Source: Candidatus Obscuribacterales bacterium (GTDB taxonomy: Bacteria; Cyanobacteriota; Vampirovibrionia; Obscuribacterales; Obscuribacteraceae). From it: a stretch of 64,000 nucleotides of DNA. The stretch spans positions 124,001 to 188,000 of the forward strand of contig JAIETZ010000005.1 in assembly GCA_019744775.1 (NCBI GenBank), in the 5' to 3' direction. Shown piece after piece: positions 2,650 to 7,447 of the stretch. The position numbers and the translations under genes were made by a program. Position 1 is the first letter of the stretch. Each line of letters starts with the position of its first letter. Below the pieces are notes generated by a model. That model saw nothing but the letters and a program-made list of their open reading frames with translations. It did no database searches and was not told the DNA's origin.

Positions 2650-3957
2650 GTGAAGGAAAGAAAGCCCAGCATTTATATACCGACTCTCTATCTTGCTGAA
2701 GGATTGCCCTACACGATAGTCAACAGCATGTCGGTTGTGTTTTTTAAAAATCTCGGCTTGTCCAATGAGCTAATTGGCTTGACAAGCTGGTTGGCATTGC
2801 CTTGGACAATCAAATTATTTTGGGGACCATTTGTTGATTTGATTGGCACTAAACGCAAATGGATTCTTACCTGCCAGCTTATGCTCACTGTACTAACCGG
2901 CTTCCTTGCGTCAGACGCATTGACGTCTAACGCAATTCCTTTGGCATTTTTTGTGTTTGCAGTGATGGCATTTGTCTCGGCGACGCAGGATATTGCCATC
3001 GATGGTTATTACATGGAGGCTCTGACAGGCAAAGAGCAAGCCTACTTCATAGGTATTCGTAGTGCTGCCTACAAAGTAGCCTGGCTTCTGGGCTCAGGCG
3101 GCTTGGTTTTTCTTGCTGGAAAACTCGGTGAATTTTTAGGCGTGCAAAACGGCTGGGCGATATCCTTTGCAACCAGCGCTGTTCTCTTTCTTGTGCTCTT
3201 AGCCTTTCACTCTTTCTATTTGCCTCACCCCAAGCAAAAATCAACTGAATCAATCGGCGTCACTCCAAGTGTTTTTGGTCGCGTGTTTTCCACCTACTTC
3301 CAACAGCCGGCAATTCTGCCGATAGTTTTGTACATACTTACATTTAGGCTGGGCGATGCGCTCATGTTGAAAATGGCGCAACCGTTTCTTCTTGACCCGA
3401 TAGAAAAAGGTGGACTGGCTATTTCCACAGCCGATGTCGGAATTATCTACGGCACTGTTGGAATGCTATTTCTAATTGCCGGTGGCATTCTTGGCGGATT
3501 TCTTGTTTCAAAAGACGGACTAAAAAAATGGCTGTGGCCGACAGCATTGATTCAAAACTCGGCAATACTTCTATATTGGTTACTTGCGCTCTACAAGCCG
3601 GGTTTGACAGGCGTAGCAGTTGTAAATTCAATTGAACAATTCTCTTACGGCCTGGGCGTGTCTGCTTATACGGTATTTTTGCTTACAACAGTGAAGCAAG
3701 AATTCAAAGCGGCACATTACGCAATTGCCACAGGCATGATGGCGCTGGGACTGCTCGTACCTCAGTCGATAAGTGGCTATTTGGTAACTTGGCTTGGTTA
3801 TACAAATTTCTTTTTATTGAGTTTTTGCGCGGCCATTCCTGGTATTATCACGATCTTCTTTTTGCCGCTAAACAAAATTCCGGAAACAACAACTCAATCT
3901 GTTGAAGGAGAATCTCATGGAATACAGGAAGTTAGGGAAGTGGGCCCTTCGTGTTAG
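2650..3957 (+). CDS. MFS/PAT-type permease (AmpG-like)
   Basis: A 435-aa polytopic inner-membrane protein with about 12 hydrophobic segments. The opening LYLAEGLPYTIVN and WGPFVDLIGTKRKW loop are characteristic of the PAT branch (AmpG muropeptide permease and acetyl-CoA transporter relatives) of the major facilitator superfamily. QDIAIDGYYME in helix 4 also fits that branch. Translation starts at a GTG. The last 41 bp overlap the aldo/keto reductase start, so the two are probably translationally coupled. The transported solute cannot be assigned from sequence. Confidence 0.85.
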   Translation: MKERKPSIYIPTLYLAEGLPYTIVNSMSVVFFKNLGLSNELIGLTSWLALPWTIKLFWGPFVDLIGTKRKWILTCQLMLTVLTGFLASDALTSNAIPLAFFVFAVMAFVSATQDIAIDGYYMEALTGKEQAYFIGIRSAAYKVAWLLGSGGLVFLAGKLGEFLGVQNGWAISFATSAVLFLVLLAFHSFYLPHPKQKSTESIGVTPSVFGRVFSTYFQQPAILPIVLYILTFRLGDALMLKMAQPFLLDPIEKGGLAISTADVGIIYGTVGMLFLIAGGILGGFLVSKDGLKKWLWPTALIQNSAILLYWLLALYKPGLTGVAVVNSIEQFSYGLGVSAYTVFLLTTVKQEFKAAHYAIATGMMALGLLVPQSISGYLVTWLGYTNFFLLSFCAAIPGIITIFFLPLNKIPETTTQSVEGESHGIQEVREVGPSC

Positions 3958-4891
3958 TGAAATAGGCATTGGCAGCTGGCTAACCTATGGCGGCAGCGTC
4001 GACAAAAAACAATCTATTCACTGTTTGCATCATGCCTTTGAGCAAGGCATCAACTTCTTTGACACCGCAAATGTGTACGCTCACGGTGAATCGGAAAAGG
4101 TTGTCGGTGAAGCAATAAAACATCTCGATCGCGACGACATTGTGCTTGCCACAAAAGTCTATTTCCCCATGGGCAATGGACCAAATGACGGCGGACTGTC
4201 GCGTAAGCATATTTTTGAGCAGTGTCATCACAGCTTGAAGCGTCTGGACACAAGCTACATTGATCTCTATCAGTGTCATCGCTTTGATCCAAACGTGTCG
4301 ATGGAAGAACTTGTGCGCACGATGGATGATTTAACACGACAAGGAAAAATACTTTACTGGGGAGTCAGTGAATGGCCCGCTGAAAAAATTGTCGAGGCAG
4401 TTGAAGTTGCATCGAAACTAAACGCACCGCCACCTGTTTCCAATCAACCTTTCTACAACATGCTGGGAAGATCTATAGAAGAATCAGTTATTCCAACGTG
4501 CGAAAAATTAGGTTTGGGACAAGTTGTTTTCTCCCCTCTGGCGCAAGGTGTTCTAACCGGCAAATACAAGCCTGGACACAAACACCCGACAGATAGCCGA
4601 GCGGCAGATCCCAGACAAAACGCGTTTATGGTAGGCCGTGACTTAATGTCTGATGCCACACTGGAAAAAGTCCAGCAATTGGCTCTAATTGCCAACCAAT
4701 TGGGTATTTCGAACGCCCAGTTGGCTCTTGCCTGGTGTTTGCGCCTAGGCAATATCAGCAGCTGCATCATTGGAGCGACAAAAACAAGCCAAATTGATGA
4801 TAATGTCAAAGCCAGCGGTATCAAATTGTCTCAAGATGTCCTCAAACGAATTGATGATATCGTGAGCGCCAACTATGCTGGAATTAGTTAA
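3917..4891 (+). CDS. Aldo/keto reductase (Kv-beta/YghZ type)
   Basis: A 324-aa NADPH-dependent carbonyl reductase with a TIM-barrel fold. The catalytic tetrad is visible as FDTANVY (Asp and Tyr), LATK (Lys) and YQCHR (His). The C-terminal IIGATKTSQIDDN binds the cofactor phosphate. The ATG at 3917 has AAGGAG 6 nt upstream. That site lies inside the end of the permease gene, giving a 41-bp overlap. Closest family resemblance is to potassium-channel beta subunits and YghZ-like reductases; the substrate is unknown. Confidence 0.9.
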   Translation: MEYRKLGKWALRVSEIGIGSWLTYGGSVDKKQSIHCLHHAFEQGINFFDTANVYAHGESEKVVGEAIKHLDRDDIVLATKVYFPMGNGPNDGGLSRKHIFEQCHHSLKRLDTSYIDLYQCHRFDPNVSMEELVRTMDDLTRQGKILYWGVSEWPAEKIVEAVEVASKLNAPPPVSNQPFYNMLGRSIEESVIPTCEKLGLGQVVFSPLAQGVLTGKYKPGHKHPTDSRAADPRQNAFMVGRDLMSDATLEKVQQLALIANQLGISNAQLALAWCLRLGNISSCIIGATKTSQIDDNVKASGIKLSQDVLKRIDDIVSANYAGIS

Positions 4892-4908
4892 CTCTTGGAG
4901 GAGAAATA

Positions 4909-5529
4909 ATGGCTGTAACAGTAAAACGAGCCTCTATGTGGCGTAAGGAGATAACCAATAAACCAGGAACTCTGGCAGACTCTCTAAAAACGCTATCCAA
5001 GTCAGGCGTCAATCTGCAAACAGTTATGGGTTATGTTTATCCAGGACAACCCAAGAAGGCTGCAGTTGAGGTTTACCCGGTTTCCGGTTCCAAGGCAGTG
5101 AAAGCGGCCAAATCTTCCCGCTTCAAGGCAGGCGAAGTGCACTGCCTATTAGTCGAAGGCGACGACAAGATTGGTCTTTGTCACAGAATGGCTGAAGCCA
5201 TCTCGGATGCAGGCATCAATTTGAATTTCGTTGTTATCCAAGTATTCGGCAGAAAATATTCCGGTTGGTTTGGCTTTAAGACAGAAGCAGATGCTGCCAA
5301 GGCAGTACCCATCATTAAAGCCATCAACATGGGCACATCTTTGCCAGGTACGAAAAAACCGGCTAAGAGAAAACCATCGAAAGTCAGAAAAGCTGCTAAA
5401 AGAGCTGGAGCTAAAGTTATCAAACTAAGTTCGGCTAAGAAGCGCAAAAAAGGTACTACCGCAAAAGCAGCTATGAGACGGACAGCCGGCAAGAAAAAGA
5501 CCAAGAAAAAGACCAGCAAGCGCAGATAA
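4909..5529 (+). CDS. Tandem ACT-domain protein with histone-H1-like lysine tail
   Basis: A 206-aa protein in two parts. Residues 1-145 resemble two ACT modules: KPGTLADSLKTLSKSGVNLQTVMGYV, then KIGLCHRMAEAISDAGINLNFVVIQVFG. ACT modules bind amino acids or similar ligands. Residues about 148-206 form a tail extremely rich in Lys, Arg and Ala (AKRKPSKVRKAAKR, KKKTKKKTSKRR), like the tails of bacterial H1-type nucleoid proteins. GGAGG lies just before the ATG. Role inferred: a ligand-sensing, DNA- or RNA-binding protein. No catalytic domain is present. Confidence 0.78.
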   Translation: MAVTVKRASMWRKEITNKPGTLADSLKTLSKSGVNLQTVMGYVYPGQPKKAAVEVYPVSGSKAVKAAKSSRFKAGEVHCLLVEGDDKIGLCHRMAEAISDAGINLNFVVIQVFGRKYSGWFGFKTEADAAKAVPIIKAINMGTSLPGTKKPAKRKPSKVRKAAKRAGAKVIKLSSAKKRKKGTTAKAAMRRTAGKKKTKKKTSKRR

Positions 5530-5547
5530 AGCCAGCTTAGACAATTA

Positions 5548-5593
5548 AACAAGGGGATGGTTTTGACGACAGCAAATAAATCATCCCCTTGTT
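5548..5593 (+). terminator. 12-bp inverted repeat, hairpin between ACT gene and GIN-type gene
   Basis: Perfect 12-bp arms (AACAAGGGGATG at 5548-5559 and its complement at 5582-5593) flank a 22-nt loop. The hairpin follows the ACT gene stop by 18 bp and ends 18 bp before the next ribosome-binding site. There is no T-run, so it may be a Rho-assisted terminator, an mRNA stabiliser or an operator. Confidence 0.5.
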
Positions 5594-5624
5594 ATCATTA
5601 AGGAAACAATTGGAGGCAGCGGCG

Positions 5625-6500
5625 ATGTTTCGAATTCTACTTATGATCTTAGCTTTCCAGCTATTTCTGCCGGCGTTTGCCGCCAAGTCTGGAATCATGA
5701 CCGAAACCGAGGCAAAGACAGATAATTTGTTTACTCCACCAGACTTTGTGACATTTGCTCAGATAAGCATGGACGCCCCAGAAATTATTCTGGCAGTCGA
5801 AGGGGTCAACGCAACTATCAAGCGCGTACCAAAATTGAGCCAGATAAATGTTTCCAGCAATTGTCCGGGACACTGGAATTGCACAAGAAATGTCATTCGC
5901 CAGGTAGCGGCCCTCAATATGCCGAAAGGGGTCGCCATTCGTGCTGACTCAGCAGGCGGCGTCGCCCTGGTTAACGGCAAAGTTTACGGACTTCCAAGCA
6001 GCGGTGGTCAGATAAAAGGGCTTAAAATTGAAAACGGACAAGTGATTATCAATGGCCAGCCTATGCAACCTCTACAAGGCTCGGACAAGGCAGGCAGCTG
6101 CACAGGACCCGATGTCCTTGAAGTACAAGTCCCTGACACCTATATGGGTGATTTGCGCCTTCTTATCAACGGCAATTCTCAGGTAGCAGTGGACGGGTGG
6201 AAAAACGGCGCTGTGCAGGCAAACGTGGCAACAAACGGCACTTTGTCGGCAAACAAATTGGACAAGGTCGCCAAACTGGTTATAGATGTGCAAGGCAAGG
6301 GAAAAGCACATGTAGGAAACATGACTGCAAAAACTCTTGTAGTCAATATCGTTGGAGACGGCAACATAACAATTGACCACGGAACGGCAGATGTAAGCAA
6401 TGCCACCATATCCGGTACCGGAACAATAAGTTTGCACGGCAAGTACAACAATATGCAGAAAGACGTTAAGGGTCAGGGCGTAATCGAAATTCTGGACTAA
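5625..6500 (+). CDS. Secreted GIN-domain (DUF2807-like) beta-rich protein
   Basis: A 291-aa exported protein. Residues 1-18 form a signal peptide (FRILLMILAFQLFLPAFA). The C-terminal half is a run of short beta strands with spaced Gly/Asn (INGNSQVAVDGW, VDVQGKGKAHVGN, VGDGNITIDHGTA, ISGTGTISLHGKY), the pattern of DUF2807 'head GIN' beta-helical domains. The ATG at 5625 has GGAGG 8 nt upstream. The stop overlaps the next gene's start (TAATG), so the two are coupled. The function of GIN domains is not established; surface adhesion is often suggested. Confidence 0.72.
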   Translation: MFRILLMILAFQLFLPAFAAKSGIMTETEAKTDNLFTPPDFVTFAQISMDAPEIILAVEGVNATIKRVPKLSQINVSSNCPGHWNCTRNVIRQVAALNMPKGVAIRADSAGGVALVNGKVYGLPSSGGQIKGLKIENGQVIINGQPMQPLQGSDKAGSCTGPDVLEVQVPDTYMGDLRLLINGNSQVAVDGWKNGAVQANVATNGTLSANKLDKVAKLVIDVQGKGKAHVGNMTAKTLVVNIVGDGNITIDHGTADVSNATISGTGTISLHGKYNNMQKDVKGQGVIEILD

Positions 6501-7006
6501 TGGATCTTAATAAACTCGCAGATCTAGTCGAACAAATGTCAATCGAGCATAGCTATCCCGGCTATGACGTTAGATCCACACATTTAGGTATGCCGGACTC
6601 GGTAACCAAATCACCTGCACGGTTATTTGGATTAGCTTTAGAACACGAAAGTGTCATGGTCAAATTAGTCGCTCTGCGCTGGTTCTATGACAGACCAGGC
6701 GATGCTAAGCGATATCAAAAGACTTTATTGGATCTTCTTGCCAGTCCCGATGAATGGGTACGTCTGGAAACAGCCAAGACAATAAGCCGCATCCACAACG
6801 TGGACGAGCAAGTTGCAATTGCCGTATCGAAATTGTTGTCCGATCCAAACATGGAAGTGCGCAAGCACGCAGCCAAAGCACTGGGCAAACTTGGACACAA
6901 GAATTCGGAGATTATCGAAAACTTGCAAAAAGCAAGTAGCGACTCTGATCGCGAAGTACGCTGGAAAGCAGAAAAAGCATTGCGCCTTTTAGGTGCTTAC
7001 CAATAG
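6500..7006 (+). CDS. HEAT-repeat protein
   Basis: A 168-aa soluble protein with no signal peptide. At least three HEAT/PBS-lyase-type helical repeats are visible: SPDEWVRLETAKTISRI, DPNMEVRKHAAKALGKLG and DSDREVRWKAEKALRLLG, each with the conserved VR dipeptide. Such repeats make scaffolds for protein binding. It is translationally coupled (TAATG) to the secreted GIN-type gene upstream. No catalytic residues are seen. Confidence 0.8.
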   Translation: MDLNKLADLVEQMSIEHSYPGYDVRSTHLGMPDSVTKSPARLFGLALEHESVMVKLVALRWFYDRPGDAKRYQKTLLDLLASPDEWVRLETAKTISRIHNVDEQVAIAVSKLLSDPNMEVRKHAAKALGKLGHKNSEIIENLQKASSDSDREVRWKAEKALRLLGAYQ

Positions 7007-7012
7007 ACTCTG

Positions 7013-7447
7013 CTAAAGTCCTGGAAATCGCTTAGCGATTTCTTTCAGACGTTCGGCGAATTTATGCTTCTCTTGCAAGCGATTAGCGTAGTCGTACTCG
7101 AAGTACTGCTCGAGAAAATTGAGATTGTATCTGACAATCTTCAATAATTCTTCAAGCGTTGAATCAACGTCGCTATTAAACATCTTGAGCTCAGGCAAAC
7201 AACCGTCAGGTCTGAGTTGTTTGCCTTGAGCCAAGAAGTTATGCGCCTTAGCGCAAAGCGTTGCGTATTCAGAGGCCAACAGATGGAAGTGATGACAAAT
7301 TATCTTCTCTTCCAGAGTCACTCGTTTGTCGGCCAGGAGCTGAATCACTTCACTTATCTTGTCGATAAGCTTATTGATTGTTCTCAGCTCAGCCAGCCAA
7401 GCAACATAGTCACCATCGGCGTATTGAATTTCAGAACTTGCGTTCAA
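7013..7447 (-). CDS. Unrecognised 144-aa helical protein downstream of an RHH regulator
   Basis: I do not recognise a family. The predicted protein is alpha-helical and charged, lacks a signal peptide and has two cysteines near the middle (IICHHFH and ATLCAKAH). It starts 15 bp after the stop of the ribbon-helix-helix gene, so the two are probably one operon, an arrangement also seen in toxin-antitoxin modules. Nothing in the sequence shows a known toxin active site, so that reading is only a possibility. It converges on the HEAT-repeat gene. Confidence 0.65.
   Translation of the reverse strand: MNASSEIQYADGDYVAWLAELRTINKLIDKISEVIQLLADKRVTLEEKIICHHFHLLASEYATLCAKAHNFLAQGKQLRPDGCLPELKMFNSDVDSTLEELLKIVRYNLNFLEQYFEYDYANRLQEKHKFAERLKEIAKRFPGL

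Follow-up and report, generated by a model that had tools for sequence, protein, structure and literature searches.

The window analysed here is a stretch of 64,000 nucleotides from an Obscuribacterales genome (Cyanobacteriota), and the gene considered below encodes a protein of 206 residues in which a tandem ACT core is followed by a polycationic tail. The gene, its upstream neighbours and the features around it are:

2650..3957, plus strand: gene for an MFS transporter, its end overlapping the reductase gene
3917..4891, plus strand: gene for an aldo/keto reductase, 17 bases upstream of the ACT gene
4897..4903, plus strand: Shine-Dalgarno-like GGAGGAG, 5 bases before the ATG (read directly)
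4909..5529, plus strand: ORF of 206 aa, tandem-ACT protein with polycationic tail (ORF read, Pfam match)
4909..5325, plus strand: tandem ACT core, residues 1-139 (Pfam, profile, aligned cores)
5326..5526, plus strand: Lys/Arg/Ala-rich tail, residues 140-206, with no acidic residue and a net charge of +29
5490..5515, plus strand: 12-base tandem repeat (2.2 copies) encoding KKKT units within the tail
5548..5593, plus strand: hairpin just 3′ of the stop, with 16-nt arms that are 94% complementary

The ORF begins with an ATG at 4909, behind a strong ribosome site, and its TAA stop ends at 5529. The stretch that holds the hairpin (5530-5600) folds at -23.1 kcal/mol (z -4.7) and lacks a U run; the hairpin is a possible 3′ end of the mRNA. 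A sequence-only reading of this DNA had placed a double ACT domain with a Lys/Arg/Ala tail at 4909-5529, and it was exact in coordinates, strand and start, with Pfam and profile matches in agreement. Several trivial or unrelated origins were considered and set aside. An artefact of frame or assembly is ruled out as the source of the tail, which six genera carry in frame, and stops interrupt the remaining two forward frames of the tail DNA. The minus-strand ORF at 5181-5552 is complementary to the Lys-rich stretch and was not counted as a gene, and a viral origin was rejected, viral contigs being without any relative.

Residues 1-139 read as a diverged pair of ACT domains, an assignment that is marginal by single sequence and better by family. 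First, the Pfam ACT model (PF01842) matches the core alone at E 3.6e-6 and 27.1 bits (the curated cut-off is 27), and the full protein with its tail at 25.6 bits, just under that cut-off. The match rests mainly on the second ACT domain: the first domain alone is weak (E 0.13), and among three relatives tried it scored E 0.0006 and E 0.0019 in two and gave no ACT match in the third. The Pfam family for an ACT domain pair (ACT_8, PF19571) reaches 15.5 bits, below its cut-off of 23.5. Second, PF01842 matches 11 of 11 related cores at E <= 0.01 (best E 1.2e-13), and PF19571 is matched by five of the 11 members of the core group at the same threshold. Third, in hhalign comparisons the family core profile extends across the two ACT domains of aspartokinase (E 1.7e-8, probability 95%). 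Its two halves also align with one another around the beta1-alpha1 loop and the helix, over 28 columns (E 1e-4) but at a probability of only 56%. P19-G20 and G89 are invariant in all 11 aligned cores, and G20 and G89 occupy the positions of the beta1-alpha1 loop glycines of the first and second ACT domain, respectively. Among solved structures the profile matches best to 2nyi (2.3e-5), with the GcvR-like 1u8s and aspartokinase ACT chains also found. Structure prediction, run twice and on three sequences, gave models of low confidence (mean pLDDT 48 and 52). Retention of the loop glycine, together with the amino-acid binding that is typical of ACT domains (PMC3173338 among the sources, as far as their available text goes), suggests that the pair binds a small molecule, with an amino acid as the likeliest ligand; the accessible part of PMC3173338 ties the loop glycine to the serine site of PGDH.

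The core can be set beside several known kinds of protein. The regulatory ACT pair of aspartokinase is covered across both domains by the core profile, but the window protein has no kinase domain. GcvR-type proteins (PDB 1u8s) are likewise non-enzymatic ACT pairs and match only weakly (by profile E 1.1e-4, by single sequence E 0.081), but 1u8s has 192 residues, the matches cover single ACT stretches only, and an NCBIfam scan of the window protein listed no GcvR model. Tandem-ACT proteins on Cupriavidus and Burkholderia plasmids also stand alone, and their cores can be aligned over the full length. They came from a plasmid search in which four of 72,556 records matched, all from Burkholderiaceae; identity is 30-32% over 94-96% of the query, and the core profile runs end to end along them (hhalign 99.6% over 140 columns). 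Unlike the window protein, the two of these four that were inspected have no tail. Elsewhere, 382 genomes of the class were scanned and gave the ACT pairs of the family and two aspartokinases (L028 called through Pfam, L029 judged from its sequence); from 386 genomes of the phylum came the window's gene and one of these aspartokinases. A contig scan beyond the phylum, which detects close relatives only, returned just two Obscuribacterales loci.

Within the family, the ACT pair occurs in 13 of 50 genomes, and its C-terminal end takes several forms. Long tails of 65-135 residues are present in six of the 13 (G000, G009, G010, G019, G020 and G023, representing six genera). Four copies are tail-less, ending at the core or a few residues beyond it (G004, G005, G016 and G022), and a fifth has a 13-residue basic stub in place of the long tail (G021). 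One copy is cut by the contig end after residue 54 (G001). The last (G017; L040 3302-3871) is divergent: it has lost the loop of the first ACT domain, matches no Pfam family at E <= 0.001 and may be decaying. The layout, as these searches define it, is a tandem ACT protein that stands alone and bears an H1-like tail, found in one bacterial family, and the earlier description of it as rare stands, with the pair itself uncommon and a long tail on fewer than half of its copies. In a literature search, no publication turned up that describes a histone-like tail on an ACT protein. Homologs lacking the tail, which the sequence-only reading had named as evidence against it, do exist in the family, as the four copies and one stub just described, and count partly against that reading. 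Because those five manage with little or nothing beyond the core, the tail is dispensable for whatever the core does in them. When 14 cores are placed on a tree, the family members without a tail, four in number, group together with support (97/96), and two changes of the tail label are required if the plasmid outgroup is counted (10 of 500 shuffles were as low). Given the long branch of the outgroup, this tree fits either a gain or a loss of the tail.

The H1-like feature of the window protein, a Lys/Ala-rich C-terminal tail free of acidic residues, consists of 67 residues that are 31% lysine, 12% arginine and 15% alanine. Over the last 55 residues its net charge is 0.49 per residue, and the next highest value was 0.25 among 385 greedily chosen ORFs from 464 kb of the same genome (the window and 20 stretches of 20 kb), a sample that was not random and that missed two HU proteins with similar tails. 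H1-like tails are therefore rare in this genome, not unique. A search of the genome with the tail alone returned only the protein itself and one weak match (E 0.24), and since it missed the tailed HU proteins, such a search is too insensitive to count tails. The two HU proteins belong to a set of four paralogues, of which they are the ones with K/A/P-rich H1-like C-terminal tails:

L075 1372-1800, minus strand: tailed HU paralogue
L077 1369-1821, minus strand: tailed HU paralogue

Their tails are clearly like one another (0 of 500 shuffles as good). Common ancestry of the ACT and HU tails is unsupported, as 78 of 500 and 89 of 500 shuffles match the two HU tails as well as the window tail does.

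What the family tails have in common is chemistry. Across the six there is one acidic residue in 484, compared with 82 in 838 in their cores (Fisher p 6e-16, a guide only, as residues are treated as independent). Order is another matter: among the 15 pairs of tails, two were clearly better than shuffles (G000-G010 and G019-G023, 0 of 500 as good in each case), two more were matched by one shuffle in 500 (G009-G020 and G010-G019), and the other 11 beat shuffled tails weakly or not at all. Beyond the closest pairs the tails share composition and not sequence, and a tail whose charge is kept while the order of its residues is not fits a disordered polycation. A conserved H1 motif was looked for, with inconsistent results. 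Motifs of the PAKK/KAAK type occur in three of the six tails and are absent from the other three; the window protein has two, and 65 of 1000 shuffles hold as many. The tail of G019 contains a 15-base unit repeated 9.9 times (L032 5451-5598) that encodes AAKKT-like pentamers, and these recall the lysine-rich pentamers described in the available account of chlamydial Hc2.

These observations bear on whether the tail does anything at all. It could be a low-complexity ornament, gained once and tolerated, on an ACT pair that works through a protein partner in the manner of GcvR. GcvR acts by binding a protein partner, GcvA. The existence of tail-less relatives, the range of tail lengths, order that persists only in close pairs and the repeat in G019, which points to repeat expansion, would all be expected of such an ornament. 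The near-absence of acidic residues over 484 positions in six genera would be unexpected if the tail were unselected, and the presence of the tail is clustered on the tree; we consider the ornament unlikely. The suspicion that the tail might prove to be variable low-complexity noise is borne out for residue order and yet not for composition.

A role for the tail is suggested instead by proteins that carry similar ones. HupB-type HU proteins have a K/A/P-rich basic C-terminal tail, as do the two HU copies of this genome, and the HupB tail is required for nucleoid association according to the part of the report available; the window protein differs in having an ACT pair in its N-terminal part, where they have a DNA-binding HU domain. 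AlgP and PhaF place an H1-like disordered tail on a non-HU domain. In the accessible portions of their descriptions these tails are reported or thought to bind DNA and the proteins organise granules, but the tails consist of KPAA repeats over about 150 residues, the N-terminal domains are helical or phasin, and no ACT domain is mentioned. By these precedents, and with tailed HU proteins and a bL21 homologue with a K/A/E-rich tail encoded in the same genome, the tail of the window protein would hold it on the nucleoid by charge. We give an even chance to the resulting picture: a non-catalytic tandem-ACT sensor of a small molecule (probably an amino acid), tethered to the nucleoid by an H1-like disordered polycation. 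The original suggestion of an amino-acid-sensing nucleoid or RNA-binding protein remains plausible on the composition of the tail and the analogy with HupB, AlgP, PhaF and HU. Should the tail prove to bind DNA and the ACT pair to bind a metabolite, the protein would be a minimal chromosome-borne metabolite sensor assembled from a pair of known modules, in a non-photosynthetic cyanobacterial order that has been little studied. H1-like tails would then also be shown to have been put on a domain that does not itself bind DNA, in a genome whose HU paralogues have the same kind of tail.

The chemistry of the tail fits RNA as well as it does DNA, and the protein could instead be an ACT sensor at the translation machinery, bound through its tail to RNA or the ribosome. 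The bL21 homologue of the same genome has a K/A/E-rich tail, and in two relatives (G019 and G023) a gene for a SpoU-type RNA methylase, on the opposite strand, adjoins the ACT gene. That neighbour is confined to those two genomes, however, and a Pfam search of the window protein gave no RNA-binding domain; RNA or the ribosome is a rather unlikely target. AlgP offers another precedent, in which the tail would direct a metabolite sensor to polyphosphate granules: the H1-like tail of AlgP acts at such granules, and Obscuribacter phosphatis has polyphosphate genes (both from partial accounts). The window's own genome encodes a polyphosphate kinase, but so do 7 of 14 control genomes, the enzyme being common; no gene next to the ACT gene was recognised as a granule gene, and AlgP itself is described, in the text available, as moving to the nucleoid when polyphosphate kinases are absent. 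Granule targeting is correspondingly improbable.

If tethering to the nucleoid is taken as the working model, the ligand could do more than occupy the ACT pair. Its binding might shift the oligomeric state and with it the number of tails per particle, and that number might then tune how the protein binds DNA or presents a partner. DNA binding by the ACT protein BCARR increases with branched-chain amino acids; the ACT domain of BCARR is proposed to control DNA binding, and no CodY-type HTH motif was found in the protein, as far as the available account goes. By analogy, BCARR suggests that an ACT domain is able to raise DNA affinity in response to branched-chain amino acids. It differs from the window protein in having a CBS domain and a single ACT domain, and the same account mentions no polycation tail. 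Ligand gating of the predicted DNA binding is accordingly a guess, and its full form, a ligand-gated H1-like nucleoid protein in which an amino acid alters assembly so that the tails coat or release the chromosome, seems doubtful to us. Were it true, amino-acid status would be linked directly to the nucleoid with neither a helix-turn-helix nor an enzyme in between.

The neighbourhood of the gene agrees with the earlier claim that it has no enzyme partner, to the extent that the gene stands alone and the enzyme next to it is not obligate. The ACT gene lies behind the reductase gene in G000, G010, G020 and G023. G019 has the transporter and the downstream genes, but no reductase was found in its genome at E <= 1e-60, and the SpoU-type gene lies between, as it does in G023. 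The reductase was considered as an obligate operon partner and is ruled out in that role: it occurs in 33 of 50 family genomes (E <= 1e-60), the ACT pair in 13 of those 50, and the ACT gene adjoins it in none of 12 reductase loci examined from other genomes (these include G004, G009 and G016, whose ACT gene sits elsewhere). The reductase is best described as a frequent neighbour of the tailed form. Among the neighbours that could be identified, none is an amino-acid metabolism gene, a point against the favoured picture. The surrounding genes form a block conserved in the family (window 2650-7447; L030-L073) that comprises the MFS transporter, the aldo/keto reductase, in some cases a DUF2807 protein, a HEAT-repeat protein and a small unnamed protein; it also holds an unnamed protein of 300-500 aa that was not seen in the window. 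In G009, a single case, the tailed ACT gene lies near genes for Ku and LigD (L031 999-6165).
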